Assembly (NCBI RefSeq): GCF_024704725.1
Contig: NZ_JALIQS010000001.1
Span: 372,001-436,000 of the forward strand
DNA from: Shinella sp. CPCC 101442
GTDB taxonomy: Bacteria; Pseudomonadota; Alphaproteobacteria; Rhizobiales; Rhizobiaceae
DNA length: 64,000 nt
Direction of reading: 5' to 3'
The notes under the pieces were generated by a model, which was given only the letters and a program-made list of their open reading frames with translations, was not told where the DNA came from and ran no database searches. Every line of letters begins with the position of its first letter. Within the stretch, counting starts at the first letter, position 1. A program made the translations under genes and the position numbers. Shown one piece after another: positions 15,620 through 48,549 of this stretch.

Positions 15620-15688
15620 GGCTTCCTCGCAATTGGAACCTGCGCCCGATGGCGCGTGCATCGATTGCTAATCGGACCAATAGCGCAA

Positions 15689-29811: not shown

Positions 29812-30999
29812 TCACGTGACGGACTTGGCGATACGAAACTTCCGTTTTTCGAGTTCGGGAAAATAGGTCGCGACGTCGAAATAGCTTTCCGGTGCGTGGA
29901 CGCCCGGCTTCTTCGGCAGCTTGAGGATGAGCTGCGCGGCGATGGAGGCGTTCATCGAGGTGCAGGCATCGACATAGGGACCGTATAGCGGGTCCGGCGA
30001 GACCGTGACCTCGACGCGCACCGTGCGCTCCACGCCGTCCTTCCGGCCACGGCCGATGGCGAAGTGGATTTCATGGCTATCCTGCGCGGGGATTTTCTCC
30101 GCGTGTTTGCGGATATTGCGCTCGATCACCTTGTTCAGGACATCGAGCGGTTTCACTTTTACGCCGCCGATCTCCACCGGCTCGTCGAAATCGCCGAAAC
30201 CTGCCTTCACAAGCCCCACCCACGCCTCGTGCTCGCGGTGCGGCAGATGCAGCTTCCAGGAAAACTCCCGGATGCCCTTCTCGCGGATGCCGTCCGCAAG
30301 CGGCACGGTCAGCTGTTCGGAATGCGGCGAATGCATGAATTCACAGCGGCCCCATGGCTCCGGCAGGTCGAGAAATTCACTGCCGCTCATCGGCGCGCAT
30401 TCGACATGTTTGCCGTCGTAGAACTGCGTGCTTGGATGGGCGTATTCGGCAAGCACCGTCGAGACACTGTAAGGCGGTACGAGAACCGGGTTTTCGTCCC
30501 CAACCAGCTCGGCGGCCCAGTAGAGGTTGATCCTGTCGATCTCGTCGAGTTCATCGGCGACCGCGCGGCAGATGACATTCGACATGCCGGGATCGGCACC
30601 GCACCCCAGGACCGCCGGAACGCCCGCCGCCTTGAAGCGTTCGTGCTCGGCCAGCTGCTTGACCGTGTAGGTGCCAAGGCCGCCAAGGTCCATGTAAGGC
30701 ACCTTGAGGGCAAGCGCCGCTTCGAAGATGGTCATCTGAAAGCCGAGCAGGGTCGGCACGCAGTTGATGCAGATATCGGCGCCGGAAATGGCGGCGTTCA
30801 GCGCCGACGCATCGGTCACGTCGAGATCGACGAGGGTGATACGCAGGTCGGCGAGCTCGTTTGCCAGCGCCTCCATTTTCTCACGCGCCGCATCGCAAAT
30901 GCGGATGGCGGTGATGTCGATGATGGCGCGGTCGGAAACGAGGTCGCGCACGATGCCCGCGCCCATGAAGCCTGCGCCGCCGAGAAGGGTGATGATCAT
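29812..30999 (-). CDS. Saccharopine dehydrogenase-family oxidoreductase (carboxynorspermidine-synthase-like)
   Basis: A 395-residue NAD(P)-dependent enzyme. It begins with a Rossmann motif (IITLLGGAGFMGAGIVRDL), and carries CINCVPTLLGF, PYMDLGGLGTYTVKQLAEHE and GCGADPGMSNVICRAVAD, the catalytic/substrate region of the family that includes lysine-forming, carboxy(nor)spermidine and opine-type dehydrogenases. AAGGA before the ATG at 30999 sets the start; the longer frame has no ribosome site. It is the last gene of the minus-strand operon that begins with the polyamine-type importer, so an amine or amino-acid conjugate substrate is likely. Reaction direction and substrate are not known. Confidence 0.85.
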   Translation of the reverse strand: MIITLLGGAGFMGAGIVRDLVSDRAIIDITAIRICDAAREKMEALANELADLRITLVDLDVTDASALNAAISGADICINCVPTLLGFQMTIFEAALALKVPYMDLGGLGTYTVKQLAEHERFKAAGVPAVLGCGADPGMSNVICRAVADELDEIDRINLYWAAELVGDENPVLVPPYSVSTVLAEYAHPSTQFYDGKHVECAPMSGSEFLDLPEPWGRCEFMHSPHSEQLTVPLADGIREKGIREFSWKLHLPHREHEAWVGLVKAGFGDFDEPVEIGGVKVKPLDVLNKVIERNIRKHAEKIPAQDSHEIHFAIGRGRKDGVERTVRVEVTVSPDPLYGPYVDACTSMNASIAAQLILKLPKKPGVHAPESYFDVATYFPELEKRKFRIAKSVT

Positions 31000-31025
31000 T
31001 GTTCTGTCCTTGAATGAAAAATGTC

Positions 31026-32531
31026 TCAGACGTGCTTGCGCCCGCCATCCTCGTAGAACCAGTCGTCCGGATAGGGATACCACCAGCTCTGGATCACCGG
31101 CTTGTGGTCGATGATGACCATTTTCGAGCGGCGGAAGGCATCGAGCCCGAGTTTCGACAGTTCTCTGCCGAGGCCGGATTTCTTCCAGCCGCCGAAAGGC
31201 AGTGCGTCATTGTCGATCAGCGGATTGTTGACCCAGACCATGCCGGCCTCCAGCCGGTCCGCCGCCTCCATCGCCTCTTCGAGCGAGGTGGTGAAGATCG
31301 ACGCGCCGAGGCCGAATTCGCTGTCGTTCGCCCGCTCGATGGCCTCGTCGAAATCCTTCACCCGCATGACGGCGGCGACAGGCCCGAAGCACTCCTCGCG
31401 CAGGATCGCCATGTCGGGCGTGCAGTTGGTGAGGATGGTCGGCTCGTAGAACCAGCCGGTCGGCTCGCTCTGCGGGATTTTTCCGCCCAGCACCACAGTC
31501 GCGCCCTTGGCCTTCGCATCCTCGACCAGCCGGATGACCTTTGCACGTGCCGCCTCGCTGACGAGCGGGCCAATTTCGGCGCGCCCGAGGCCATTGCCGA
31601 TGCGCAGGCGCTTCGCCTCGGCGACGAACTTTTCGATGAATGCGTCATGCACGGCATCGACAACGAAAAATCGCTCCGCCGAGGTGCAGACCTGGCCGGA
31701 CATGTGGAAAGCCGCGGTCACGGCCCCTGCGGCGGCGACATCGAGCGGCGCATGGGCCGTTACGATCATCGGGTCGGAGCCGCCCGCCTCGATGATGGCC
31801 GGCTTCATTTGCGACGCCGCGGCCATCGCCACGGCCTTGCCGGCGGCAACGGAACCGGTGAAGGCGACCGCATGGGTTTTGGCCGAGGCGATCAGCGCGC
31901 TGCCGAGTTCGGCGCCGCCCGGCAGGCACGCGATCAGGCCCTCGGGCAGCGCCTCAAAGACAGTCATGAATTCCAGCGTGGAAAGTGTGGTCGCCGGCGC
32001 CGGCTTGATGATGCAGGCATTGCCCGAGGCGAGCGAGGCGGCGACCGTCCAGCACATCAGGAGGATCGGAAAATTGAACGGCATAATGTGCACGCTGGTG
32101 CCAAGCGCCTCATAACGCGCGTGCTGGAAGGACCCTGCCTGCGTCGTGCCCGCAACCTTGCCAGCCTCGTCGCGGGCCATTTCCGCGAAATAGCGGAAGG
32201 CGCCGGCGCAGTTCGCCACCTCGCCGATCGCCTCCGGATAGGGTTTGCCCATTTCCCGAGACATCAGTTCCGCGCAGCGCCGCATATCGGTCGCCTCGAT
32301 GCGATTGGCGATGCGATGAAGCACCGTCGCCCGGGCCTTGGCGTCGAGCCGCTTCCAGCCGCGCTGCGCCGTCGCGGCCGCATCGAGCACGGCGTCCATG
32401 TCGTCGAGCGTCGTATCGGCGAAAGTGCCGACGGTCGCGAGCGTCGCGGGGTCGATCACGCCATGGTGCGCACCCTTGCTGGAGACATAGGCCGGGTGCC
32501 GGTAGAATACGGGTTCGGCGGGGTTGAACAT
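31026..32531 (-). CDS. NAD(P)-dependent aldehyde dehydrogenase
   Basis: A 501-residue ALDH superfamily enzyme. The catalytic Cys is in SGQVCTSAERFF (about residue 280), the general-base Glu in IIEAGGSDPMIV, the cofactor region in AFTGSVAAGKAVAMAA and PFNFPILLMCWT, and the C-terminal segment is PFGGWKKSGLGRELSKLGLD. AAGGAAA lies a few bases before the ATG. It follows the paired cupin genes after a 154-bp gap with a palindromic element, and precedes the saccharopine-dehydrogenase-like gene by 26 bp. It probably oxidises an aldehyde made from the imported compound, such as an aminoaldehyde. Confidence 0.92.
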   Translation of the reverse strand: MFNPAEPVFYRHPAYVSSKGAHHGVIDPATLATVGTFADTTLDDMDAVLDAAATAQRGWKRLDAKARATVLHRIANRIEATDMRRCAELMSREMGKPYPEAIGEVANCAGAFRYFAEMARDEAGKVAGTTQAGSFQHARYEALGTSVHIMPFNFPILLMCWTVAASLASGNACIIKPAPATTLSTLEFMTVFEALPEGLIACLPGGAELGSALIASAKTHAVAFTGSVAAGKAVAMAAASQMKPAIIEAGGSDPMIVTAHAPLDVAAAGAVTAAFHMSGQVCTSAERFFVVDAVHDAFIEKFVAEAKRLRIGNGLGRAEIGPLVSEAARAKVIRLVEDAKAKGATVVLGGKIPQSEPTGWFYEPTILTNCTPDMAILREECFGPVAAVMRVKDFDEAIERANDSEFGLGASIFTTSLEEAMEAADRLEAGMVWVNNPLIDNDALPFGGWKKSGLGRELSKLGLDAFRRSKMVIIDHKPVIQSWWYPYPDDWFYEDGGRKHV

Positions 32532-32574
32532 GGTATTTTCCTTGACGTTCTGCGGATCGGAAGGCTGACCGACC

Positions 32575-32685
32575 TTTTCCCTTCCCGCTCGTGGAGGAAG
32601 GGAGACGATGCGGCGCAACAAGTCCCTTCTTCCCGCCTACGGAGAGAAGAGACCGGGAGGCGGACGGGAGGTCGAAGCCTCTCCC
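32575..32685. repeat. Palindromic intergenic element, two adjacent hairpins
   Basis: CCCTTCC-N8-G-GGAAGGG near 32579-32603 and a second imperfect hairpin (TTCTTCCCGCC...GGAGAGAAGA) near 32627-32651 fill the gap between the second cupin and the aldehyde dehydrogenase. GC-rich mosaic hairpins like these are common intergenic repeats in rhizobia. No other copy is seen in the window. Confidence 0.4.
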
Positions 32686-33033
32686 TCAGCGGATCATGTA
32701 AACCTTCTTCACCGTCTCATGGACCGTGCATTCGCCCTTCCAGTCCTTCGGGAAGAAGGCGGCGGTGTCGGGCATGATCTCGATCACTTCACCGCTCTCG
32801 TGCACATAGGTGCAGCGCCCCTCGAGGAAGTGGCAGAACTCGTCGCTGGTGACATGGCAGAACCATTTGCCCGGCGTGCAGATCCAGAGGCCGCATTCGG
32901 ATTGGCCATCCGGACCCTTGTGGATGACTTTGCCGGAGGTGCGGCTCTCACCCTCGATCATGGTGGGGATCACGCCCCAGTCCTTGAGATCGGTTTCTTC
33001 CAGCGGCTTGCGCATCAGGGGTGTCGCGGTCAT
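32686..33033 (-). CDS. Cupin-domain protein (EutQ/DUF861-like), copy 2
   Basis: A 115-residue single-domain cupin. The barrel is recognised from GLWICTPGKWFCHVTSDEFC, HFLEGRCTYVHESGEVIEI and AAFFPKDWKGECTVHETVKK, ending in KVYMIR. An excellent AAAGGAAAC precedes ATG. It is visibly a duplicate of the upstream cupin: the DEFCHF core, GEVIEI/GEVIEV and WKGECTV/WTGECTV blocks align without gaps. Small cupins of this group bind metal and may isomerise or hydrolyse sugar or amine acids, or serve as a sensor. Its place between glycosyltransferase and aldehyde dehydrogenase suggests a catabolic role. Confidence 0.87.
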   Translation of the reverse strand: MTATPLMRKPLEETDLKDWGVIPTMIEGESRTSGKVIHKGPDGQSECGLWICTPGKWFCHVTSDEFCHFLEGRCTYVHESGEVIEIMPDTAAFFPKDWKGECTVHETVKKVYMIR

Positions 33034-33061
33034 GGGTGTTTCCTTTCGTTTTTTCTTTGCG

Positions 33062-33424
33062 TCAGACCAGCATGTAGATGTTGCGCATAGTCTCGATGAC
33101 GGTGCATTCACCGGTCCAGCCACCGGGGAACATGACGACGGTGCCGGCCTCGACCTCGATCACCTCGCCGTCGTCCGAGCGATAGACCGCGCGTCCGGCC
33201 ACGAAATGGCAGAACTCGTCACGCGGGATCGACAGGCGCCAGCGGCCGGGCGTGCAGACCCAGATGCCGGATTCCGGCTGGTTGTTCGGTCCCTTGAAGA
33301 CGAGCCGGCCGGAGGAACGGGATTGCCCTTCCTGACTATCCGGTTGGTCGCCCCAATCGACGAGATCGGAAAAGGTCGTCGCGTTGTAGATGTGCGGCGC
33401 CGTGGCTTTCGTCGTCTCAACCAT
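33062..33424 (-). CDS. Cupin-domain protein (EutQ/DUF861-like), copy 1
   Basis: A 120-residue cupin paralogous to the following gene. Core features are SGIWVCTPGRWRLSIPRDEF, CHFVAGRAVYRSDDGEVIEV and VVMFPGGWTGECTVIETMRN. The ATG at 33424, overlapping the glycosyltransferase stop, has AGGTG upstream; a GTG nine bases earlier is an alternative. Overlap with the glycosyltransferase gene indicates translational coupling. Function is unknown beyond the fold. Confidence 0.87.
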   Translation of the reverse strand: MVETTKATAPHIYNATTFSDLVDWGDQPDSQEGQSRSSGRLVFKGPNNQPESGIWVCTPGRWRLSIPRDEFCHFVAGRAVYRSDDGEVIEVEAGTVVMFPGGWTGECTVIETMRNIYMLV

Positions 33425-34709
33425 TGTAGACACCTGTCTTCACGAGTTGGTCGAGAATGCCGGCCGCCTTCTTCGGGCCGTTGCGGGCCTGCATATGGGC
33501 GCTGGTGGCGGCAAGGCGCGTCTTCATGGTCGGATTGTTGACGCAAGCCTCCAGCTTGGCGGCGAGGTCTGCATCCGTCCAATCGTACCGCGGCATCTTG
33601 AAGCCGTGGCCGGTCTCGTCGACACGTGTCGCATTGTCGTGGCCATCCCAGACATAGGGCATGATGATCGCCGGCTTGCCGAAATAGAGGCACTCCGTGA
33701 ACGAGTTGTTGCCACCGTGATGGATGGCCGCATCGACCTGCGGGATGACCGAGGGTTGCGGGAACCAGCTGTCGACGATGACATTGCCGGGCAGGTTCTC
33801 GTATTGGTCCTTGTAGTCGCCGACATTGACCAGCGCCCGGTAGGGCAGCTTGCCGATGGTCGCGATCAGCCGCTTCAGGAGATCCGTATCCCCCGCGCCG
33901 AGCGAGCCGAAGGAGATGTAGATCAGCGGCTTGTCGTTGTTCTCAGCGAAGGCCGGAACCTCGTAGGGCTTTTCCTTGCGCACGCAGCCTTCGAGATACT
34001 GGAACTGTGTCGGGTCGAGCCGATGCTCGCGGTCGAATTTCACCGCCTCCGGATAGAGCAGCAGGTTCATGAAGGGCGAGGCTTCGAAGAACTGGCCGAT
34101 GGGATAGGCCGCCTCGTCGTTCTCGCCGAGAAAGCCGTTGAAGTCATCGTGGATCGGTTTGATCACGGCATTGAAATGATCGCGATAGGCCGCATGGCCG
34201 GCGAAATCCTTCTCGCCGCAGCCGGAGAGATGCGGCGGGATTTTCGGATCCTCGATCTCGTTTTCCGAGCAGGAAATGATGCGCACCCAGGGCGTACCGT
34301 ATTGCTTGATCGCCGGGAAGAGGATGACGTTATCGACGCAGATGAGGTCCGGCTTGATCCTGGCCAGCACGCCCGGCAGGTCCTTCTGGGCCCATTTGGC
34401 GCTGTCGACGATCGCCGTCCAGCAATCCTTCACATAGTTGTCGACCTGGTCGTAGGGCGATTTACGGAAATTCGGGATGTGGCCGTTGATGAAATCCTCC
34501 CAGAACTTCGCCATCTGCTCGGGCGGCATGGGCTCGGAGAGGTTCACCGCATGGGCTTCGAAGCCGTAACCCTCATAGACCGAAACGAAACCGGGGTCGG
34601 AGAGGAAGACGGCCTTGTGGCCGAGCGCCTCGACGGCTTGCGCGATGCCGACGGAGTTCAGCGCCGGGCCGAAGGCCGCTTCCGGGAAAAATGCGATGGT
34701 CTTGGACAT
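33417..34709 (-). CDS. Family 1 glycosyltransferase (UDP-glycosyltransferase/MGT type), copy A
   Basis: A 430-residue GT-B fold enzyme. N-terminal acceptor half: IAFFPEAAFGPALNSVGIAQ, DLICVDNVILFPAIKQYG. C-terminal nucleotide-sugar half: LIYISFGSLGAGDTDLLKRL, VIVDSWFPQPSVIPQVDA, and the donor-binding HHGGNNSFTECLYFGKPAII with PYVWDGHDNATR, where WDGHDNA replaces the usual D-Q-x-x-NA. GAGGGGA before the ATG sets the start. It begins 17 bp after the importer ATPase gene, in an operon otherwise devoted to uptake and oxidation, an unusual place for a glycosyltransferase. It has a paralogue on the divergent arm. The acceptor is unknown. Confidence 0.88.
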   Translation of the reverse strand: MSKTIAFFPEAAFGPALNSVGIAQAVEALGHKAVFLSDPGFVSVYEGYGFEAHAVNLSEPMPPEQMAKFWEDFINGHIPNFRKSPYDQVDNYVKDCWTAIVDSAKWAQKDLPGVLARIKPDLICVDNVILFPAIKQYGTPWVRIISCSENEIEDPKIPPHLSGCGEKDFAGHAAYRDHFNAVIKPIHDDFNGFLGENDEAAYPIGQFFEASPFMNLLLYPEAVKFDREHRLDPTQFQYLEGCVRKEKPYEVPAFAENNDKPLIYISFGSLGAGDTDLLKRLIATIGKLPYRALVNVGDYKDQYENLPGNVIVDSWFPQPSVIPQVDAAIHHGGNNSFTECLYFGKPAIIMPYVWDGHDNATRVDETGHGFKMPRYDWTDADLAAKLEACVNNPTMKTRLAATSAHMQARNGPKKAAGILDQLVKTGVYNG

Positions 34710-34726
34710 GGTGTTCCCCTCTTTAT

Positions 34727-35773
34727 TCATTGGAAGATCCGGCTTTTCGCCGGATCAATCTTGAGGCTCAGCGCATCGCCGATCTTCCAGTTGCCCGCAC
34801 CGCTCGCGGGGATGCGGACCTGAAGCGGCGTCTCGGTGGCGCTTGTCCTGACATGCAGCACCCGGTCGAGGCCGTGATAGGCGATATCGACGATGGCGCC
34901 GGATACCGGCAGGTCGCCGGGCGGGCCGATGGCGATGTTTTCCGGGCGAACGGCGAGCGTCGCCGCGCCGGCATTGCCCCGTGCCTTCACCTGCAGACCG
35001 TCAGCCGCGAAGACGCCACTCGCGTCCACTTTGCCGTCGATGAAATTCATGACGCCGATGAAATTGGCGACGAAGCGATCCGCGGGGCGCTCGTAGACCT
35101 CTTCCGGCGCGCCGACCTGCAGGAGGCGGCCGTCCTTCAGGATCGCCATGCGGTCGGCCATGACCAGCGCCTCCTCCTGGTCGTGCGTGACGATGATGAA
35201 GGTGATGCCGATCTCGTTCTGCATACGCTTCAGTTCGAGCTGCATCCTTTCCCGCAGCTTCTTGTCGAGCGCGCCGAGCGGTTCGTCGAGCAGCAGCACC
35301 TTCGGGCGTTTCACCAGCGCGCGGGCGAGCGCCACACGCTGCTTCTGGCCGCCCGAGAGCTGTTCGGGCTTGCGGTCGGCGAATTGCGTCAGGTCCGTCG
35401 TCGCCATGGTCTCATCGACGCGGCGGCGGATTTCCGTCTTGGCGAGCCGCTCCATTTCAAGGCCGTAGGACAGGTTCTGCCTGACCGTCATATGCGGAAA
35501 GAGCGCGTAGGACTGAAACATCAGGTTGAGTGGCCGCTTTTCCGGCGGCAGCGGGGAAATGTCCTTGCCCTCGAGCAGGATGCGGCCGGCATTCGGGCTT
35601 TCGAAACCGGCGAGCATGCGCAAGAGCGTGGTCTTGCCGCAACCCGAGGGGCCGAGCAGCGCGAAGAACTCGTTCTCGCGGATATCGAGCGTCACATTAT
35701 CGACCGCCGTCACCGGCCCGAACGCCTTGCCGACACCCTCGATGCGCAGGATCGGATTGCTGGATGCGTTCAT
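34727..35773 (-). CDS. Polyamine-type ABC transporter ATP-binding protein (PotA-like)
   Basis: ATPase of a spermidine/putrescine-family importer, 348 residues. Walker A is GPSGCGKTTLLR (about residue 40), the Q-loop MFQSYALFPHMT, signature LSGGQKQRVALARAL, Walker B VLLLDEPLGALDKKLR, H-loop VTHDQEEAL, and a C-terminal TOBE domain with LAVRPENIAIG. The ATG overlaps the permease stop as ATGA. Together with two permeases and a PotD-like receptor it makes a full importer. The glycosyltransferase gene follows by 17 bp. Confidence 0.93.
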   Translation of the reverse strand: MNASSNPILRIEGVGKAFGPVTAVDNVTLDIRENEFFALLGPSGCGKTTLLRMLAGFESPNAGRILLEGKDISPLPPEKRPLNLMFQSYALFPHMTVRQNLSYGLEMERLAKTEIRRRVDETMATTDLTQFADRKPEQLSGGQKQRVALARALVKRPKVLLLDEPLGALDKKLRERMQLELKRMQNEIGITFIIVTHDQEEALVMADRMAILKDGRLLQVGAPEEVYERPADRFVANFIGVMNFIDGKVDASGVFAADGLQVKARGNAGAATLAVRPENIAIGPPGDLPVSGAIVDIAYHGLDRVLHVRTSATETPLQVRIPASGAGNWKIGDALSLKIDPAKSRIFQ

Positions 35774-36561
35774 GGGACCTGCTGTTGTCTGTTGAGCCAT
35801 TGCGAGATCAGAAGCGCCGTCGCGCTGACGCCCATGACGATGGTGGCGAGCGCGTTGACCTCGGGTGTGATGCCGAAGCGGATCATCGAATAGATCTGCA
35901 TGGGAAGGGTGATGGACGAGCGCCCGGCGCCCGCCGTGAAGAAGGCGATGATGAACTCGTCGACCGAGAGCGTGAAGGCGAGCAGCGCGCCGGCAACAAT
36001 CGACGGCAGAAGCACCGGAAAGGTGACGCGCCAGAAAGTCGTCCAGCCGGACGCGCCGAGATCGCGCGAGGCCTCGACGATGGAGAAGTCGAAATGTTTG
36101 AGCCGGGCGCGCACGACCGAGCAGACGAAGGCGAGGTCGAAGATGACGTGGCTGATGACGATGGTGTGCAGGCCCATCGCCAGGCCGAGGCGCGAAAAGA
36201 AGGTGAGCAGCGCCACCGCAAGCACGATGTCGGGAATGACCATCGGCGCGAAGGCGAGCGCTTCCAGGCCGTTGCTCTTCCTGCGCCGCGTTTCCATGCC
36301 GAGCGCCAGCAGCGTGCCGAGCACCGTCGAGATGACCGTCGCGAAGATAGCGACGATGAACGTGTTGCCGGCCGCGCGCAGAATATCCGTATTGGCCAGC
36401 AGAGCACCGTACCAGCGGACGGAAAAGCCGGACCAGGAGGTCGGCAGGCCGCTGTCGTTGAAGGAGAGCAGCACGAGCACGGCGATCGGCAGGTAGAGGA
36501 AGCCGAAGACAAGGAGCAGCACGATGCGCCCCGGCAGTTTGCTGGAAAACGTCGCGTTCAT
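35770..36561 (-). CDS. Polyamine-type ABC transporter permease (PotC-like)
   Basis: A 263-residue inner-membrane permease with six hydrophobic segments. The PotC-type opening (VLLLVFGFLYLPIAVLVLLS, FNDSGLPTSWSGFS, RWYGALLAN) and the EAA loop (EASRDLGASGWTTFWRVTFP) are clear, followed by ALLAFTLSVDEFIIAFFTAG. It overlaps both neighbours by four bases, so permeases and ATPase are strictly coupled. Confidence 0.93.
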   Translation of the reverse strand: MNATFSSKLPGRIVLLLVFGFLYLPIAVLVLLSFNDSGLPTSWSGFSVRWYGALLANTDILRAAGNTFIVAIFATVISTVLGTLLALGMETRRRKSNGLEALAFAPMVIPDIVLAVALLTFFSRLGLAMGLHTIVISHVIFDLAFVCSVVRARLKHFDFSIVEASRDLGASGWTTFWRVTFPVLLPSIVAGALLAFTLSVDEFIIAFFTAGAGRSSITLPMQIYSMIRFGITPEVNALATIVMGVSATALLISQWLNRQQQVP

Positions 36562-37460
36562 TGCGCCGCCTCCCCCTTGCGCTCGCCGCTGGCATGGGCC
36601 GTGGCGCGGGCCTGCAGCAGGAGCAGCACGATCATCGTGAGGATCAGCGCGGCACCGAGCGCGGCACCGAAGGGCCAGTCGTTCGCCGTCAGGAACTGGT
36701 CGTAGACGAGATTGCCGACCATCTGGAACCGCCCGCCGCCGAGAAGCGCAGGGGTCACGAAGTTGCCGATGGAGAGCACGAAGACGAAGACGCCGCCCGC
36801 CGCAACCCCCGGCAAGGTGAGCGGGAGCGTGACGCGCAGGAAGGTGCGGACCGGACCGGCACCGAGATCGCGCGAGGCCTCCATCAGCTCCGGGTTGAGC
36901 CGCGACAGCGTCGAATAGATCGCGAGGATGACGAAGGGCAAGTAGTTGTAGACGAGACCTGTGATGACGGCGCTCTCGGTGTAGAGCATCGACAGCGGCT
37001 CGCCCGTATAGCCAAGCGAACGCAGGAGATTGTTGATCAAGCCCTCGCGATTGAGCAGCACGATCCAGGCATAGGTGCGGATCAGGTAGTTGCTCCAGAA
37101 GGGCAGCACGGCGAAGAACAGCAGGATCGGCTGCGACATCCTTGGCGCACGACTGATCGCGTAGGCGGCGGGATAGGCGATGAGGATGGCGATCACTGTC
37201 GCCGTCAGCGCGATGCGCGCGGAATTCAGGAAAATCTTCGCATAGAGCGGATCGGCGACGCGGGCGAAATTTTCCAGCGTGACCGTGTATTCCACCCCAC
37301 CCCAGACGCCGCGCTGGAAGAAGGCATAGCTCAACACCAGCAGGCATGGCACCACCATGAAGGCGACGAGCCAGGCGACGCCGGGCGCGGCGAGCAGGTT
37401 CGGTCTGGTGGCATTAAGGGACAAGGCTTCGCTCCCGCGGTGCCGCAAGCCACCGCGCAT
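36558..37460 (-). CDS. Polyamine-type ABC transporter permease (PotB-like)
   Basis: A 300-residue permease. It shows the PotB/PotH-like N-terminal helix (PGVAWLVAFMVVPCLLVLSY), FWSNYLIRTYAWIVLLNREG, the EAA loop (EASRDLGAGPVRTFLRVTLP) and NFVTPALLGGGRFQMVGNLV, all standard for this family. The ATG used has no ribosome site; a TTG 36 bases further in, preceded by GGGAG, gives a shorter and more family-like N-terminus (SLNATRPNLLAAPG) and may be the true start. It follows the receptor gene after a 70-bp gap with a hairpin. Confidence 0.9.
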   Translation of the reverse strand: MRGGLRHRGSEALSLNATRPNLLAAPGVAWLVAFMVVPCLLVLSYAFFQRGVWGGVEYTVTLENFARVADPLYAKIFLNSARIALTATVIAILIAYPAAYAISRAPRMSQPILLFFAVLPFWSNYLIRTYAWIVLLNREGLINNLLRSLGYTGEPLSMLYTESAVITGLVYNYLPFVILAIYSTLSRLNPELMEASRDLGAGPVRTFLRVTLPLTLPGVAAGGVFVFVLSIGNFVTPALLGGGRFQMVGNLVYDQFLTANDWPFGAALGAALILTMIVLLLLQARATAHASGERKGEAAQ

Positions 37461-37483
37461 ACAGGATTTCTGGATGAAGAATA

Positions 37484-37518
37484 CCCGTGGCGACAGGCCG
37501 CCTTCCGGCCGCCACGGG
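37484..37518 (-). other. Intercistronic stem-loop after PotD-like gene
   Basis: CCCGTGGCG and CGCCACGGG form a perfect 9-bp outer stem; GGCCGCC/GGCGGCC-type pairing inside makes a nested hairpin. It lies between the receptor stop and the permease start, with no U-run, as at the other binding-protein genes here. Confidence 0.7.
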
Positions 37519-37530
37519 AAGGGTCCAAGA

Positions 37531-38589
37531 TCAGTTCGCGGCCTTGATCTCGCTTACGATGCGCGAATAATCCTTCTGCGCTGTCCCGAGATCACGCAGA
37601 AGCTCGTATTTGACGAGGTCCGCAGGCGCCATGGCCATGTTCGGGTACTGCTCGGAAAGCGCCTTGTCGAGGCTTTCCATCGCCGCCTTGTTCGGCACCT
37701 TGTAGAGGATGTTCTGCGCGGCCCAGGCGTGGTTCTTGGCGTCGAGGATGAAGTTGATGAACTTCATCGCCGCATCCTTCTTCTCCGAGCTTTTCAGGAC
37801 GACGATCGTGTCGATCCAGAGGTCGGAGCCTTCCTTCGGCACGACGAACTTGATGTCCTTGTTCTCGGTGATGCCATAGTTGCACCAGCCGTCCCAGGCA
37901 TGCACCAGCGAAGCCTCGCCGGAGACGAGCTTGGAATAGAAGGTCGTGTCGTCATAGGCGAGCAACGTCTTCTTCGCCTCGATGAGCAGGTTTTTGACCT
38001 CCTCAAGCTTGGCCGGATCCTTCTCGTTGACCGAGAAACCCTTGGCGAGTTCGCCCGCGGCCATCAGCCAGCGATCGGTCGCCAGCATCGTCGTTTTACC
38101 CTTGATGGCATCGGCCGGCTGGAGCAGGTTCAACCAGCTGTCCGGCGTGTCCTTCACGAGATCGGAGCGGTAGCAGAGGCCTGTCGTGCCCCAGGTATAG
38201 GGCACCGAGAAGGTGTTGCCGGGGTCATAGGCGAGCGTCGCGGCTTCCGGGTAGAGATTGGCAAGGTTCGGCACGGCCGCCTTGTCGATCGGCTCGGCGA
38301 GCCCCTGCCCGTTCAGGATTTCGGCAAAGGGCGAGGAGACGAAGACCACGTCGTAGCCCTTGCCACCGCTCGCCATCAGCTTGCCCATGACTTCTTCATT
38401 GGTGGCATGGTTGACCACCTCGATCTCCAGTCCCGTCGCGGCCTTGAACGTATCCGCGATATCGGGGGCCATGTAGCCGGCCCAGTTCGAGATGACGAGA
38501 TCGGCGGCAGACGCCGTACCCGCCGCAAGGCATGCGGCAGCCAGCGCCGCGGCCGCGCAGGTCGCAGTCAGTCGGTTCTTCACGGTCAC
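37531..38589 (-). CDS. Polyamine-type periplasmic binding protein (PotD-like)
   Basis: A 352-residue receptor. The start is a GTG at 38589 with AAGGGAG 6 nt upstream, giving a signal peptide (KNRLTATCAAAALAAACLAA, cut after ASA). The mature part has the PotD pattern: LVISNWAGYMAPDIADTFKA, EVVNHATNEEVMGKLMASGG, YDVVFVSSPFAEILNGQGL and YTWGTTGLCYRSDLV. The acidic and aromatic ligand residues of spermidine/putrescine binders cannot be assigned with certainty, so a modified amine or opine remains possible. It is the first gene of a nine-gene operon and is divergent from a GntR-type regulator. Confidence 0.9.
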   Translation of the reverse strand: MTVKNRLTATCAAAALAAACLAAGTASAADLVISNWAGYMAPDIADTFKAATGLEIEVVNHATNEEVMGKLMASGGKGYDVVFVSSPFAEILNGQGLAEPIDKAAVPNLANLYPEAATLAYDPGNTFSVPYTWGTTGLCYRSDLVKDTPDSWLNLLQPADAIKGKTTMLATDRWLMAAGELAKGFSVNEKDPAKLEEVKNLLIEAKKTLLAYDDTTFYSKLVSGEASLVHAWDGWCNYGITENKDIKFVVPKEGSDLWIDTIVVLKSSEKKDAAMKFINFILDAKNHAWAAQNILYKVPNKAAMESLDKALSEQYPNMAMAPADLVKYELLRDLGTAQKDYSRIVSEIKAAN

Positions 38590-38668
38590 GGAAGACTCCC
38601 TTGTTTCGTTGTTCCAACCTCTTTGACGGGCGCGCCGGTTCTCCGGTCTCATTCCCTGTCGCATGGCA

Positions 38669-38690
38669 GTATTATTTAGAAAAAAAATAC
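38669..38690. promoter_or_regulatory. AT-rich inverted repeat between divergent arms (candidate operator)
   Basis: GTATT-N12-AATAC inside an A/T-rich patch of the 172-bp divergent region, the obvious place for a binding site of the GntR-type regulator encoded next. The centre contains a run of eight A. Confidence 0.35.
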
Positions 38691-38761
38691 GTCAATAGGG
38701 TCGGTGCATTTTTGTGGCCCGCGTATTTCCGGACTTGCGAAACCACGGCTCAAAGGGCAGC

Positions 38762-39724
38762 ATGCACGGCGATGGAAGGCAGACGCGAACAATGACCCCC
38801 GAGCCGAAACGCACCAACTTCCGCCATGTCGAACTGGCGCAAAAAATACTGGACGTTGCCGGCGAGCGCGGCATGGCGCCCGGCGAGCGGCTGGCCGAAC
38901 AGGCGCTCGCCTCGCTCTGCAACGTCTCGAGAACTCCGATCCGCAAGGCTTTGCAGATACTTGCCGAGCGCGATCTGGTCACGGCGGATGCCGAGGGCGG
39001 CTATCTGCTTGCCATCGACCCCGTGGCGACCGCCCGCCTCGAAGACACCGCGGAAGGCGAGGGCGAAGGCGAAATCTATGCCGCGATCCTGCGCGACCTC
39101 TCCGCCGGGCGCATCGCCGAAAACCAGACCGTCGCCGCCCTGCAGCGCCGCTATGACGTCTCACGCCAGACGGTACAAAATGCACTGATGAAACTGGCCG
39201 AGGAAAATCTCGCCGAACGCGCCGCCGGACAGCAATGGCTGCTCAAGCACTTCGCGATCAGCGGGGACGCGGCTGCGAAAAGTTACGAATTCCGTCTTGC
39301 GACGGAACCGCTTGCCCTGACGCTGCCGGAGTTCAAGCGCGACATGCCGGCGATCACGGCGCTACGCCAGTCGATGCTGATCCTGCGCGGGATGAACGAG
39401 ACGAATTTCGACCGCAAGCTCTTCGACCGGACGGATTACGATTTTCATCTATTGATCGCCCGCTCCTGCGGCAATCCGTTCATGGCGGAAGCACTGACCA
39501 ACCACCATCGCCGCCGCCGCGCCAGCCCGCCGGCCGGCCACGTGAACGCCTTCCGACTGATGCAGTCCAACATCGAACATATCCAGATCCTCGAGCAGAT
39601 CGAGCGCGGCCAGATGGAGCTTGCCGCCGATCTGATGCGTGTGCATATACAGCTCTCCCAATCGCAGCGCCCCCGGCTTGCCGGCCGCGGCGTTCCCCCC
39701 GCCTTCAAACTCATCGCGCGTTAG
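38762..39724 (+). CDS. GntR-family regulator with two winged-helix domains
   Basis: A 320-residue transcription factor. A first GntR winged helix occupies about residues 12-72 (AQKILDVAGERGMAPGERLA, then NVSRTPIRKALQILAERDLV), and a second, similar one about residues 87-145 (IYAAILRDLSAGRIAENQTV, YDVSRQTVQNALMKLAEENL). The helical C-terminal sensor region (LRQSMLILRGMNETNFDRKL, YDFHLLIARSCGNPFMAEAL, LEQIERGQMELAADLMRVHI) resembles FCD. Of several in-frame starts, the ATG at 38762 follows AAAGGG and is preferred; 38792 is possible. It is divergent from the importer operon and precedes the second glycosyltransferase by 6 bp, so it probably controls both arms. Confidence 0.87.
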   Translation: MHGDGRQTRTMTPEPKRTNFRHVELAQKILDVAGERGMAPGERLAEQALASLCNVSRTPIRKALQILAERDLVTADAEGGYLLAIDPVATARLEDTAEGEGEGEIYAAILRDLSAGRIAENQTVAALQRRYDVSRQTVQNALMKLAEENLAERAAGQQWLLKHFAISGDAAAKSYEFRLATEPLALTLPEFKRDMPAITALRQSMLILRGMNETNFDRKLFDRTDYDFHLLIARSCGNPFMAEALTNHHRRRRASPPAGHVNAFRLMQSNIEHIQILEQIERGQMELAADLMRVHIQLSQSQRPRLAGRGVPPAFKLIAR

Positions 39725-39730
39725 CCCTCC

Positions 39731-41032
39731 ATGGCGCCAGCAAAGACCATCGCCCTTTTCCCGGAAGCGAGCTACGGCGCGGCGCTCAACTGCGTCGGCA
39801 TCGCCCAGGAACTTCGGCGTTTGGGCCATCGCCCGGTCTTCATCTGCCACCCGGGCTTTTCCGGCGTCTTCGCGGAATACGGCTTTGCCGAATACCAGCT
39901 GACCGAGGCCGACGCTGCGCCGACGGACTGGAACGACTTCATCGAACGCCACCAGGATGCCTTTCGGCAGGCCCCGTTCGACCAGCTGGAAAGTTATGTC
40001 GGCCCGACCTGGGAGGCGATCGTCGATACGGCCATGCGGGTGGAGGAGCCGCTGCGCCAGTTGCTCGGCCGGCTGAAGCCGGATGCGATCGTGCTCGACA
40101 ACGTCGTGATGTTTCCGGCCATCGCCAATGCCGGCGTACCGTGGATCCGCGTCGTCTCCTGCGCCGAGACGGAAATCCCGGACGAGAATGTGCCGCCCTA
40201 CCTGTCCGGCTGCGGCGACAACGAGCGTGCAGCCTGGACGGCGTTCGCCGACCGTTATGAAAAGACCGTGGCGTCCGCCCACAGGCGCTTTTCCGCCTTC
40301 CTTGCCGAATGCGGCCTCAAGGCTCCGACGGCACCGGTCTTCCTCGGCCCCTCGCCCTGGCTGAACCTGTTGCTGGCGCCCGACATCATCCGCCATGATC
40401 GCCATGCGGCGCTCGACCCCAGGCGTTTCATCTTTCTCGACGGTTGCGTGCGTCATGAGGCGCCTTATACGCCGCCGCGTTTCGCCAGCCACAACGAGGC
40501 GCCGCTGGTGCTGACGAGTTTCGGCTCGCTCGGCGCGATGGATGTCGCGATGATGAAGCGCATGATCGCCGTCTTCGCTACCCTGCCCTGCCGCTTCCTC
40601 GTCAATGCCGGTCACTGGCGCGAGGAGTATCGCGAGGTGCCGGACAATGTCTTCATCGACAGCTGGTTCCCGCAGCCTTCGGTGGTCGAACAGGCAAGCC
40701 TCTTCATCCATCACGGCGGCAACAATTCCTTCTGCGAGGCGCTTTATTACGGCGTGCCGTCGCTCGTCATGCCCTATTGCTGGGACGGCCACGACAATGC
40801 GGCGCGCGCCGCCGAAACCGGCGTTGGCCGCCGGCTCGGTCGCTATGACTGGAGCGACACGGACCTGACGGCCGCCATCGACGGCCTGCTCGGCGATCAC
40901 GAGATGCAGGCGCGCCTCAAGGCGAATGCAGCAAAGATGCATAAGGCGGCGGGCGTGACACGTGCTGCGGAGGAAATTGTCCGGGTTATGTCGGACGCCT
41001 CCATCGGGGCGGGAGAGGCATCGAATGCGTGA
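39731..41032 (+). CDS. Family 1 glycosyltransferase (UDP-glycosyltransferase/MGT type), copy B
   Basis: A 433-residue paralogue of the enzyme on the opposite arm; the N-terminal TIALFPEASYGAALNCVGIA, central DSWFPQPSV and donor-site HHGGNNSFCEALYYGVPSLV with PYCWDGHDNAARAAETG align almost without gaps. It belongs to the same GT-B class and keeps the same WDGHDNA variant. It starts 6 bp after the regulator stop with a poor ribosome site, suggesting coupling. Its end overlaps an aldehyde dehydrogenase remnant. Sugar donor and acceptor are unknown. Confidence 0.88.
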   Translation: MAPAKTIALFPEASYGAALNCVGIAQELRRLGHRPVFICHPGFSGVFAEYGFAEYQLTEADAAPTDWNDFIERHQDAFRQAPFDQLESYVGPTWEAIVDTAMRVEEPLRQLLGRLKPDAIVLDNVVMFPAIANAGVPWIRVVSCAETEIPDENVPPYLSGCGDNERAAWTAFADRYEKTVASAHRRFSAFLAECGLKAPTAPVFLGPSPWLNLLLAPDIIRHDRHAALDPRRFIFLDGCVRHEAPYTPPRFASHNEAPLVLTSFGSLGAMDVAMMKRMIAVFATLPCRFLVNAGHWREEYREVPDNVFIDSWFPQPSVVEQASLFIHHGGNNSFCEALYYGVPSLVMPYCWDGHDNAARAAETGVGRRLGRYDWSDTDLTAAIDGLLGDHEMQARLKANAAKMHKAAGVTRAAEEIVRVMSDASIGAGEASNA

Positions 41033-41624
41033 CCACCTCTTCATCGACGGCATCTGAGCTTCTCCCGTGAAGGGTGGCACATTCGAGGTCATCGATGCTG
41101 ACGCCCTCGAAACTGATGCCGCTCACCGCGTTGGAGCTTGGCGCCATCGTTGCGGAAGCAGGGCTTCCGGCCAGCGTGCTCAACATCGTCACCGGCCTTG
41201 GCCCTGAGGCCGGCCAGCCGCTGTCCGAACATCCCGGCATAGACAAGCTCACCTTCACCGGCACCGTGCCGACGGGCGCGAAAATCATGGCGGAGGTGCG
41301 CGATATCAAGAATGTCAGCCTCGAACTCGGCGGCAAGTCGCCTTTCGTGATCTTCGCCGACGGCGATATCGAGAAGGCCGAGGACAATTTTGCGTGGACC
41401 GAGGAAATTTTCGGGCCGGTCGTCTGCGGCAAGACGTTCAAGAACGAGGCGGACGCGATCCGCATGGCAAACGACAGCCGCTTCGGCCTCGCCGCCGCCG
41501 TCACGTCGAAGGACAAGGCGCGCTGCGAGCGGGTGGCAAGGGCCTTTCGAACCATCTCGAGGTCAAGCAGATCACGTCCTTCAACAGCGACGAGCCCTGG
41601 GGCTGGTACATCAAGCCAGCCTGA
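41025..41624 (+). pseudogene. Decayed aldehyde dehydrogenase
   Basis: An N-terminal ALDH piece (MRDHLFIDGI) runs into a stop after ten codons; a second block in another frame reads LPASVLNIVTGLGPEAGQPL, LTFTGTVPTGAKIMAEVRD and SLELGGKSPFVIFADGDIE (cofactor and Glu regions). This then jumps in frame to EEIFGPVVCGKTFKNEADAI, losing the catalytic-Cys segment. A final +1 shift yields GLSNHLEVKQITSFNSDEPW and the end of the protein. At least two internal deletions and two frame changes are therefore present. The fragments resemble the betaine-aldehyde-dehydrogenase group and are not a copy of the intact enzyme at 31026-32531. Confidence 0.85.
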
Positions 41625-41815
41625 GGCGTGCCGCTGGCGGGTTGCGACGCCATGCGTTCTGGGCCATAAATCGCTCCCCACCTGTCGAAGGCCAGCCGTC
41701 ATCATGAGTGTCGCGGGCCGTGCGTGATCCCCACGCCACGGCGAATCCCCCCGCGCTCCGGTTCGGCCCCGGCATGGGTAACGACAATGCGGACCGACAA
41801 AAAGGAGAACGCATC

Positions 41816-43048
41816 ATGGGACACCTTGGCACGGCTTGGCGCAAGCGCGACTACCATCGTCAATGGCTCTGGCGGGAAGCGAACCGCCTGTTCGATTTCT
41901 TCCAGAACCGGGCCTTCAACCCGCTCGGCGGCTTCCACGAACTCGACGCCGAGGGCCGGCCGCTCAACCCCGGCAATCCGATTCGCGGCCTCCATTCCAC
42001 CGCCCGCATGGTGCATTGCTTCGCGATCGGCAGCCTGCTCGGCCGCCCTGGTTCGGACGACGTCGTCGACCACGGCATGAAGTATCTCTGGGAAAAGCAC
42101 CGTGATGCCGAACGCGGCGGCTACCATTGGTCACTCGACAATTCCGGCCTGCTCGACGCCAGCAAACAGGGCTATGGTCACGCCTTCGTTCTGCTCGCCG
42201 CTTCCAGCGCCAAGCTTGCCGGCCACCCGGATGCCGACCGCATGATCGCTGATGTCACCGGCGTGCTGGAAACCCGTTTCTGGGAAGCCGCGCATGGCGC
42301 GATTGCTGAGGAATTCGAAGCGGACTGGTCGCCGGTCCCCGGCTATCGCGGCCAGAACTCCAACATGCATCTGACGGAAGCCTTGATGGCCGCCTTCGAG
42401 GCGACCGGCGAGAAGAGTTATCTCGACAAGGCGGAAAGCATCGCCGACCTCGTCATCCGCCGCCGCGCCGGCGAAAACGGCTTTCGCGTGCCCGAGCATT
42501 TCGACGAGAACTGGGTGCTCGACAAGGACTATCGCGGCAACGAGATGTTCCGCCCCTCCGGCACGACGCCCGGCCACTGGCTGGAATGGGCACGCCTCAT
42601 CCTCCAGCTCTACGCGCTCGGCGGCAAGAAGCACGGCTGGATGCTGGACGCGTCGAAGGCGCTCTTCGCGCAATCCATCGCGCTCGGCTGGGACACGGAA
42701 AAGGGCGGTTTTTTCTACACGCTCGACTGGGCCGACGAGCCGGCCAAGCGCAACAAGCTGTGGTGGCCAATGGCCGAGGGTGTGGGCGCCGCCGCCTTCC
42801 TCGCCGAGCACCTGCCGAGCGATTTCCACGAGATCTGGTATCGCAAGATCTGGGACGTCATCGCCCGCCAGTTCCTCGATCAGGACCGTGGCGGCTGGCA
42901 TGAGGAACTGACGGAAGACCTCGTGCCGAGCTACACCCTTTTCGCCGGCAAGGGGGACATCTATCATGCGCTCCAGGCCTGCCTGATCCCGCTTTATCCG
43001 GCGACGGGCAGCCTCACCAGGGGCATCATCGAGGCGGGCGGCCGCTAG
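41816..43048 (+). CDS. AGE-family sugar isomerase/epimerase (N-acylglucosamine 2-epimerase, mannose-isomerase-like)
   Basis: A 410-residue (alpha/alpha)6-barrel enzyme. Family blocks visible are NPLGGFHELDAEGRPLNPGN, STARMVHCFAIGSLLGRPGS, GGYHWSLDNSGLLDASKQGY, GHAFVLLAASSAKLAGHPDA, RGQNSNMHLTEALMAAFEAT and GTTPGHWLEWARLILQLY, with the His residues expected to act in 1,2-isomerisation. AAGGAG before the ATG is excellent; upstream in-frame sequence is unrelated. It probably interconverts a ketose and aldose such as fructose and mannose, or a related sugar. It follows the pseudogene after 190 bp with no other feature. Confidence 0.88.
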   Translation: MGHLGTAWRKRDYHRQWLWREANRLFDFFQNRAFNPLGGFHELDAEGRPLNPGNPIRGLHSTARMVHCFAIGSLLGRPGSDDVVDHGMKYLWEKHRDAERGGYHWSLDNSGLLDASKQGYGHAFVLLAASSAKLAGHPDADRMIADVTGVLETRFWEAAHGAIAEEFEADWSPVPGYRGQNSNMHLTEALMAAFEATGEKSYLDKAESIADLVIRRRAGENGFRVPEHFDENWVLDKDYRGNEMFRPSGTTPGHWLEWARLILQLYALGGKKHGWMLDASKALFAQSIALGWDTEKGGFFYTLDWADEPAKRNKLWWPMAEGVGAAAFLAEHLPSDFHEIWYRKIWDVIARQFLDQDRGGWHEELTEDLVPSYTLFAGKGDIYHALQACLIPLYPATGSLTRGIIEAGGR

Positions 43049-44659: not shown

Positions 44660-45709
44660 ATGAGTTCTGCCGACAAGCTGCTCTCCAACTCCGTAACCGC
44701 CCGGGCCGGTGCAGACGTTCGCCGGGCAAGCCACCTCTTCGCCGAAACGCTGGATCCGGTGTTTCGCACCACGCTTCTGACGCCGGAGCGGCCGGACAAC
44801 TTCCACGCCGAGCTTTCCACCTATTTCATGGGGCCAGCTCTGCTCTTCGCCGCCGACATGGCCGGCACGACTTATACATTCTCCCGCGACCTGCGCAGGA
44901 TCGCCCGCACCGGGCTCGACCTCATCCTCGTTCAGGTGACGCTCGATGGCGGCGACATCCGCACCGTCAACGGCGAGATCCTCCATGTCGAGGCCGGTGA
45001 TATCTCCATGTTCGACCTCTCACGCCCCATGCAGGCCGAAACGCAAGGCTGCCGCAATCTCACGCTCGTGCTGCCGCGCCACATGCTCTTCGGCAAGGAT
45101 GTGCAGAATGACGCTCTGCACGGTCTCGTCCTCAAACGCCCGACCAGCACGGCACGGCTGATCGGCAGCCATCTGCGCACTCTCTTCGAAGACCTCTCGG
45201 ACATTACCCAAGCCGAAGCGCCGGCAATCGTTGCCGCCACGGCAAACCTCGTCACCAATCTCGTCGGCCCGCAGATCAACGATCGCAGCCAGCCTTCCCC
45301 GACCGTGCGCGGGGCCGTCATCATGGAAATCCGGCGGTATATCGAGCAGCAAATGGCCCATCCGGATCTTGGCCCGGACCACCTCTGCAAGATGTTCGGC
45401 CTGTCGCGCGCCTCGCTCTACCGGCTTTTCGAGCCGGTCGGCGGCGTCACCGACTATATCCGCACCCGGCGCTTGCGCGCCGCGTTCGACACGCTGGCGA
45501 ATGATAACAAACGTACCGTCGGCGAAATCGCCTACGCCTCTGGTTTTCCTGATATTTCGGCGTTTTCCCGCGCCTTCCGCCACCAGTTCGGCATGAGCCC
45601 GAGCGAGGTGCGCGAGACAGGCGATCGCAAGCCCCGCCCCCTCAGTTCCGTCGAACGACAGGCTGCCGCGTCGGTCCATGACTGGCTGCGCATCATCGGC
45701 TCCCTGTAG
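44660..45709 (+). CDS. AraC-family transcriptional regulator
   Basis: A 349-residue regulator. The N-terminal part carries an AraC-binding-like sensor domain (DLILVQVTLDGGDIRTVNGE, EAGDISMFDLSRPMQ), and the last third is the double helix-turn-helix (GPDHLCKMFGLSRASLYRLF, VGEIAYASGFPDISAFSRAF, RHQFGMSPSEVRE). It lies 79 bp upstream of a polyamine-utilisation operon on the same strand and is its most likely controller. The ATG has a poor ribosome site, so the start may be slightly different. Confidence 0.9.
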   Translation: MSSADKLLSNSVTARAGADVRRASHLFAETLDPVFRTTLLTPERPDNFHAELSTYFMGPALLFAADMAGTTYTFSRDLRRIARTGLDLILVQVTLDGGDIRTVNGEILHVEAGDISMFDLSRPMQAETQGCRNLTLVLPRHMLFGKDVQNDALHGLVLKRPTSTARLIGSHLRTLFEDLSDITQAEAPAIVAATANLVTNLVGPQINDRSQPSPTVRGAVIMEIRRYIEQQMAHPDLGPDHLCKMFGLSRASLYRLFEPVGGVTDYIRTRRLRAAFDTLANDNKRTVGEIAYASGFPDISAFSRAFRHQFGMSPSEVRETGDRKPRPLSSVERQAAASVHDWLRIIGSL

Positions 45710-45748
45710 ACATCTTGCCGTTTGACAGCTGACATCACATCAAACAAT

Positions 45749-45760
45749 ATGTGATCACAT
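45749..45760. promoter_or_regulatory. Palindrome ATGTGATCACAT before the polyamine operon (candidate operator)
   Basis: A perfect 12-bp palindrome 29 bp before the first start codon, with a related half (GACATCACAT) 11 bp upstream. It is likely the site of a dimeric repressor or of the AraC-type protein encoded just upstream. Confidence 0.5.
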
Positions 45761-45788
45761 TTCTTGAATGAACCAGCTGGAGATCGGG

Positions 45789-48547: not shown

Positions 48548-48549
48548 CC

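Follow-up and report, generated by a model that had tools for sequence, protein, structure and literature searches.

A conserved glycosyltransferase–cupin locus beside a polyamine-type importer in Shinella: a possible sugar-tagged route of amine breakdown

Within a 64,000-nucleotide stretch of the genome of Shinella sp. CPCC 101442 (contig NZ_JALIQS010000001.1, positions 372001 to 436000; this whole stretch is hereafter the window), we analyzed a locus at positions 29812-43048 that joins a polyamine-type importer to two glycosyltransferases, two cupins and several oxidoreductases. Gene identities were assigned by Pfam and NCBIfam profile searches. The minus-strand arm (38664-29812, read 5' to 3') opens with the four subunits of a Pot-type ABC importer in one gene run, namely a PotD-type solute-binding protein (37531-38664; PotD model, E 6e-39; possible GTG start at 38589 with a better ribosome site), PotB- and PotC-type permeases (36558-37460, PotB model, E 2e-77; 35770-36561, PotC model, E 4e-71) and a PotA-type ATPase (34727-35773; TIGR01187 potA, E 1e-106). 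The starts of PotC and PotA are inferred, both genes having been scanned as longer open reading frames (ORFs). PotA lies above its equivalog cut-off (356.8 versus 355.6 bits needed), while PotB, PotC and PotD fall below theirs. Next come a family-1 glycosyltransferase, GT1 (33417-34730; PF06722, PF00201; alternative start at 34709), and two paralogous cupins, CUP1 (33062-33424), which overlaps the GT1 stop and was identified by alignment rather than by its own Pfam scan (46% identity to CUP2), and CUP2, a DUF861/Cupin_3 protein (32686-33033; PF05899, E 2e-16). The arm ends with a betaine-/amino-aldehyde-type aldehyde dehydrogenase, ALDH (31026-32531; PF00171, E 9e-144), whose best NCBIfam match is TIGR01804 (388 versus 668.6 bits needed) and which is under the cut-off for the best 25 families listed, and with a saccharopine-dehydrogenase-like enzyme, SDH (29812-30999, ORF open to 31083). 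SDH carries both Pfam domains of saccharopine/carboxyspermidine dehydrogenases (PF03435, E 8e-17; PF16653, E 8e-12) and matches the structure of carboxyspermidine dehydrogenase (8deb, E 4e-14), but fails the curated equivalog for carboxynorspermidine synthase (28 versus 800 bits needed). By ORF coordinates, PotB and PotC, and PotC and PotA, overlap by 4 bases and GT1 and CUP1 by 8 bases, an arrangement that would fit a single transcript.

The divergent plus-strand arm consists of a GntR/FCD regulator (38714-39724; PF00392, PF07729), a second glycosyltransferase 47% identical to GT1 (GT2, 39731-41032), the remnant of a second aldehyde dehydrogenase (ALDH2, 41095-41615) and an enzyme of the N-acylglucosamine 2-epimerase/mannose isomerase (AGE) superfamily (41816-43048; PF07221, E 8e-121; NF051846, 361 versus 600 bits needed). 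All of the genes named in an initial annotation, made from the sequence alone, were recovered in the order given there by Pfam, NCBIfam and alignment. It had also called ALDH2 dead, and rightly so: a tblastn search with an intact 492-residue relative found pieces only (around residues 175-270, 376-433 and 467-491), and, at an overlapping position, one more weak match (40%) to residues 1-72. ALDH2 is intact in many relatives.

A scan of named genomes returned 218 relatives among 234 candidate stretches, and the best 80 of these are referred to as named loci. The initial annotation had staked its reading on the conservation of this neighbourhood, and PotDBCA, GT1, cupin and ALDH, in that order on one strand, recur in 72 of the 80 named loci, with GT2 on the opposite strand in 75. 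Five of the eight exceptions to the order are short or lie at a contig end (L075, L096, L103, L115 and L123) and three are truly different (L101, L106 and L108). We also pooled 125 GT1 loci, including the window; this set contains some duplicates from two collections and many of its stretches end early, so that its counts are lower bounds. A cupin directly follows GT1 in 117/125 pooled loci. ALDH was detected in 107, PotD in 101, GT2 in 87, SDH in 47, ALDH2 in 44, an oxidase dependent on flavin adenine dinucleotide (FAD) in 32 and a glutamine-synthetase-like ligase in 29, and SDH and the ligase never occur together (0/125). Dereplication at ≥97% GT1 identity left 110 loci (cupin in 103, ALDH in 93, PotD in 86, AmgK-like kinase in 14), and at 85% identity 39 loci (35, 28, 21 and 7, respectively). 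The core is thus GT1 with a cupin, then ALDH, whereas the importer, SDH, ALDH2, the glutamine-synthetase-like gene and the FAD oxidase are exchangeable modules. In Mesorhizobium, for example, the GT2 arm often extends into the ligase and the FAD oxidase, and in other alphaproteobacterial loci (L155, L181, L183 and L184) the FAD oxidase follows ALDH. The sugar isomerase, which the initial annotation had counted as part of the system, does not belong to this core: the AGE enzyme was found in only 6/125 loci, window included, and is a lineage-specific neighbour.

The cupin is missing beside GT1 in eight loci, of which L035, L075, L103 and L115 end shortly past GT1 (L035 and L103, equal in length, are probably one contig). 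It is truly absent from that place in L045 and L187, and in L185 and L186 it comes after a second glycosyltransferase gene. In each of the latter two loci a pair of GT1-type genes, one per strand, is accompanied by a single cupin (and by ALDH in L186), an alternative paired-glycosyltransferase arrangement. Elsewhere the two cupins share one open frame (L047, L127, L129, L176, L188, L189, L192 and L048); an apparent fusion in L041 was rejected as an out-of-frame ORF extension. The solved structures nearest to the cupin family profile are 3bcw, an uncharacterized protein (E 9e-13), and TM1112.

Relatives of GT1 are present in 18/297 genomes of the order (E ≤ 1e-30) and, at E ≤ 1e-100, in 13/385 genomes of the class, 8/398 of the phylum and 9/244 of the order of genome G346, which belongs to the same phylum but to another class. 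These counts include the centre genome, and the sets overlap. GT1 shares 97% identity with that of Shinella sp. WSJ-2, and plasmids of the haloarchaea Natrialba magadii and Natronorubrum aibiense carry GT1 at 59% identity; a query with the archaeal protein brought up no other plasmid from archaea. Among the 15 plasmid matches, neighbours were viewed in five, and for one (H1) the annotation of a close relative was used. The Natrialba copy is surrounded by histidine-utilization, glutamine-synthetase-family, aminotransferase and FAD-oxidoreductase genes, and the Natronorubrum copy by FAD-oxidoreductase, aminotransferase and polyamine-type ABC genes. Such a patchy pattern across families suggests horizontal spread. 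The 125-locus counts leave out L024 (a 3.2-kb contig of genome G114) and distant matches at 34-44% identity in Streptomyces (two records), Nonomuraea and Pseudomonas frederiksbergensis; the annotation of two of these four records lists no cupin or ALDH beside them.

Both glycosyltransferases are under purifying selection, as judged from nonsynonymous (dN) and synonymous (dS) substitution rates, with dN of 0.024-0.094 against dS of 0.52-0.64 in four comparisons for GT1. The best solved structure for GT1 is that of the spider-mite UDP-glycosyltransferase (UGT) UGT203A2 (7lvy, E 3e-51), matched over nearly the full length and well ahead of bacterial macrolide enzymes. Like the UGTs, GT1 has the donor motif HGG...E...P...D..N, with HHGGNN, E346, D362 and N366 invariant in 11 aligned members, archaeal ones included, and the Asp partner of the catalytic His (D133) equally invariant. 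The His itself, which is present in UGT203A2, is gone: 'AFGHVNA' of the mite enzyme aligns with 'AFGPALN' of GT1, placing Pro22 at the His site, which is Pro in 96/96 GT1 and Ala in 79/79 GT2 copies. In a larger set, Pro was found in 124/125 GT1 proteins, the remaining one being unreadable by pattern. The DQ donor motif usual in such glycosyltransferases is replaced by WDG(H/Q/L)DNA, with the Gln constantly lost. Excerpts of PMC8781437 describe human UGT1A4 and UGT2B10 as glucuronidating amines, also without the His, UGT2B10 retaining the Asp, and the review PMC5075577 cites Kerdpin et al. (2009), by its title, on His and Pro residues. By analogy, this suggests that the acceptor of GT1 and GT2 could be an amine. 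As a side observation, the spider-mite UGTs, to which the solved structures closest to GT1 belong, are a family described in part of PMC9704763 as acquired from bacteria, and the present cupin-linked family may stand close to the bacterial lineage that donated it.

The importer has all four subunits of the PotABCD spermidine/putrescine transporter but differs from it in the binding site. In a profile alignment, the PotD-type protein retains seven residues of Escherichia coli PotD (W34, Y37, S83, W229, W255, D257 and Y293), while D168 is changed to Thr, E171 to Trp, Y85 to Pro and Q327 to Leu. The residues replacing D168 and E171 (T196 and W199) are invariant in 20 members. Of the three acidic polyamine-binding residues of PotD (D168, E171 and D257), only D257 is kept; with the other two lost, an ordinary polyamine is improbable as the ligand. 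The site would suit a compound that is cationic at one end and different at the other better than it would putrescine or spermidine. The opine-like substrate proposed in the initial annotation found no support, as the PotD-type protein matches the agropine-binding protein (6hly, E 2.5e-8) far more weakly than E. coli PotD (4e-36 to 4e-38; 3.9e-36 for 1pot) or the polyamine-type structure 4eqb (3e-43), and an opine importer was rejected on these grounds. A macrolide glycosyltransferase (MGT) or macrolide-resistance function was likewise rejected (108 and 130 bits against a cut-off of 260). By the tests made, the locus is neither a standard polyamine importer, judged by its binding site, nor a macrolide-resistance locus, nor an opine system. 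Importers of the PotD-like kind are common in this Shinella, whose genome (6.1 Mb, 29 contigs) has 36 matches to the SBP_bac_8 solute-binding family.

Some relatives carry sugar-activating genes next to the glycosyltransferase. An AmgK-like kinase is found in 15/125 loci, in 11 of them as a same-strand gene between CUP2 and ALDH (L034, L039, L040, L076, L089, L091, L106, L127 and L151-L153) and in four as a neighbour of ALDH (L188-L191); these operon kinases are spread over six families plus named Rhizobiales, and the RD(Y/F)HVDN and DFQD motifs are present in 11/11 of those compared. A ROK-family kinase with a phosphohexomutase (2/125) lies next to ALDH in both haloarchaeal loci, the Natrialba pair having been profile-scanned. 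L190 and L191, from two genomes of the same genus, have a longer gene run that takes in a stand-alone GlmU-like uridylyltransferase, an MFS transporter and SDH; a TonB-dependent receptor is encoded upstream of the kinase, and behind the cupins lies a TetR gene of BetI-like type. There is one AmgK homologue in the 6.1-Mb host genome, and the chance of finding one in a 20-kb stretch is ∼0.3%; the 7/39 dereplicated loci that have one are far above this, on the assumption of one copy per genome, from which L188 differs. AmgK is characterized, in excerpts of PMC5371407, as an anomeric N-acetylmuramic acid (MurNAc)/N-acetylglucosamine (GlcNAc) kinase that yields the sugar α-1-phosphate. From their kinship, the attached enzymes would lead from free sugar to sugar-1-phosphate in different lineages, and in one genus on to the UDP-sugar. 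It is this variety of activating enzymes beside the glycosyltransferase that makes us prefer a recycled sugar, and GlcNAc is the likeliest candidate because of the AmgK and GlmU kinship. As in AmgK/MurU cell-wall sugar salvage, an anomeric kinase (with the uridylyltransferase in that one genus) could make a nucleotide sugar from free sugar. The operon kinases differ from that system in sitting with a glycosyltransferase and ALDH and in scoring under AmgK cut-offs where scored, and the window cluster has none. Two further genes were considered and set aside. A full-length GlmU (445 aa) beside ALDH2 in L089 looks like a housekeeping gene. The host's own AmgK homologue (G000:C17:34181-35194) shares 29-35% identity with the operon kinases and resembles a TsaE-AmgK fusion beside a MurU-like gene, the TsaE and MurU labels being presumptive ones given from sequence and motifs.

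The observed gene content, conservation, residue changes and gene co-occurrence lead us to infer, for every reaction, for the nature of the acceptor and for the cycle as a whole, a route for the uptake and oxidative breakdown of an amine-like compound via a sugar-tagged intermediate, with the sugar recycled; as a reading of sequence, we give it a rough probability of 0.43. PotDBCA would import a ligand with at least one cationic group, and GT1 (perhaps also GT2) would move a sugar from a nucleotide sugar onto this compound or an early product of it. Because the catalytic His is gone, the sugar would most likely go to nitrogen or to some other acceptor for which no general base is required. In the Shinella lineage, an aldehyde may arise through cleavage of a secondary amine by SDH; in other lineages it would be formed instead by the FAD amine oxidase, with or without the glutamine-synthetase-like ligase, and these two modules fit amine oxidation. 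ALDH would then oxidize the aldehyde derived from the compound, and the cupins would work alongside GT1, with the glycosylated intermediate as a possible substrate. Finally, the sugar would be released and reused through the AmgK-like anomeric kinase, or through a kinase and mutase, with the GlmU-like uridylyltransferase in one genus. In the genome to which the window belongs, this would fall to housekeeping enzymes.

The nearest analogue is the Puu (gamma-glutamyl-putrescine) pathway, which shares amine import, a covalent amine tag and the oxidation of amine and aldehyde, and some relatives even carry a glutamine-synthetase-like ligase and an FAD oxidase. The window cluster differs in having glycosyltransferases and cupins and no ligase, and the proposed tag is a sugar rather than glutamate. 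By analogy, the locus would work most like the Puu route with another tag, yet would not be a member of it, because no gamma-glutamyl-amine synthetase is found in the window cluster and the ligases of two relatives score 190 and 250 against the 650 bits needed for GGputSyn. More tentatively, and with the odds leaning against it, a recyclable sugar (probably a hexosamine, for example GlcNAc as its UDP-sugar) may serve as a protecting and recognition tag that is attached by N-glycosylation through a His-less glycosyltransferase, carried through oxidation, released and reactivated by an anomeric kinase and a uridylyltransferase, a sugar counterpart of gamma-glutamylation common to bacteria and archaea. 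The known roles of glycosyltransferases lie in building and detoxifying rather than in the breakdown of nutrients. If such a reusable tag exists, reactive amines and amino-aldehydes could be handled by a second chemistry besides gamma-glutamylation. The tag would also explain a gene set that is annotated but unassigned in many bacteria of soil and sea and in some haloarchaea, and the set would offer UGT-fold enzymes able to dispense with the usual catalytic His.

Several observations weigh against breakdown via a recycled sugar tag. Excerpts of PMC8781437 also report that UGT1A4, without the His, makes O-glucuronides, so N-glycosylation does not follow from the loss of this residue. The two AmgK-like kinases that were scanned are under the curated cut-off (243 and 229 versus 500 bits); in a quick tree the operon kinases form no separate clade, the long branch of the host TsaE-AmgK falling within their group, and a second AmgK-like gene of L188, 60% identical to the kinase in the GT1 run of that locus, lies outside the run (17716-18777, minus strand) near an ABC-type ATPase gene. 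The uridylyltransferase was found in a single genus only, and in 108/125 loci, the window among them, the stretch that was examined shows neither a kinase nor a mutase for the sugar. No sugar-releasing glycosidase turned up in the loci, in which no search aimed at glycosidases was made. Lastly, L176-L180 and L182 have GT1 and a cupin with no PotD or ALDH detected (a PotA-like match at 32% is present in L177 and L179), and L187 holds GT1 alone, so that catabolism may not be the common denominator.

The likeliest of the alternatives is biosynthesis or modification, in which an imported amine would be built into a glycosylated amine (an osmolyte, signal or metallophore) and ALDH would supply the acid part. 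A glycosyltransferase found with an anomeric kinase and a uridylyltransferase makes up a typical donor-supply set, the BetI-like regulator, TonB receptor and MFS transporter of the gammaproteobacteria-like loci would suit such a product, and the glycosidase that breakdown would call for did not appear in the unaimed survey. We nevertheless regard biosynthesis as unlikely, given that the ligase and FAD oxidase modules and SDH fit breakdown, that a PotD-type importer is present in 101/125 loci and that the Natrialba and Natronorubrum copies have the neighbours described above.

Alternatively, the compound could already bear a sugar when it is imported, as a glycoside or amino sugar, the glycosyltransferases running backwards or moving the sugar while ALDH and SDH oxidize the aglycone. 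GT1-family enzymes are reversible, and the AGE-family isomerase in the window and the TonB receptor in some loci would find a place in such a scheme. Reverse transfer, however, gives a nucleotide sugar directly and would make the kinase and uridylyltransferase superfluous, yet both are present in some relatives; the AGE enzyme is restricted to the 6/125 loci mentioned above, and PotD retains polyamine-type aromatic residues and one acid, all of which makes this explanation quite unlikely. We consider it improbable that GT1 and GT2 are no longer glycosyltransferases and that their GT-B fold now serves a different reaction, with a nucleotide or phosphate compound as substrate: in favour of this, both the catalytic His and the Gln of the DQ motif are constantly lost, but the HHGGNN donor loop and the Asp partner are kept and sugar-1-phosphate-forming genes are linked in some relatives. 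Detoxification, the conjugation of a toxic amine or macrolide-like compound, can be set aside as very improbable despite the matches to macrolide-type glycosyltransferases (the 108 and 130 bits given above) and to mite UGTs of a detoxification-tied family, since the scores are under the MGT cut-off, the linked transporter is an importer and not an efflux pump, and 59% identity between the archaeal copies and the window is far more than we would expect of a detoxification enzyme.

The initial annotation had suggested that an imported amine or opine-like conjugate is held, detoxified or processed as a glycoside. Its amine-type uptake and oxidation system is supported by the gene content, and a glycoside intermediate is the most economical reading of that system; the evidence for such an intermediate is stronger than the annotation knew, because of the His-less glycosyltransferases and the sugar-1-phosphate-forming enzymes in some relatives, while the opine and detoxification parts found no support. 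As it had also surmised, the set is not assigned to any known pathway in the searchable literature: among the titles and abstracts of the matches listed, with most subscription journals outside this scope, we found neither a pathway assignment of the gene set nor amine N-glycosylation in catabolism, and the sole relevant match among them, PMC7435583, deals in the part available with a characterized N- and O-glycosyltransferase outside catabolism. The gene set is real, conserved and, in the literature searchable, undescribed.

Two further features of the window are recorded here. A second amine-type gene run adjoins the cluster on the plus strand (44660-49584) and consists of an AraC/FeaR-like regulator, a class III aminotransferase, a glutamine-synthetase-family gene (47159-48547; 210 bits to glutamine synthetase III and 193 bits to gamma-glutamylputrescine synthetase, both under cut-off) and a histone-deacetylase-fold protein, of the kind that includes acetylpolyamine amidohydrolases. 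Farther away, the minus strand encodes a large RTX calcium-binding repeat protein of 997 aa (12668-15661).

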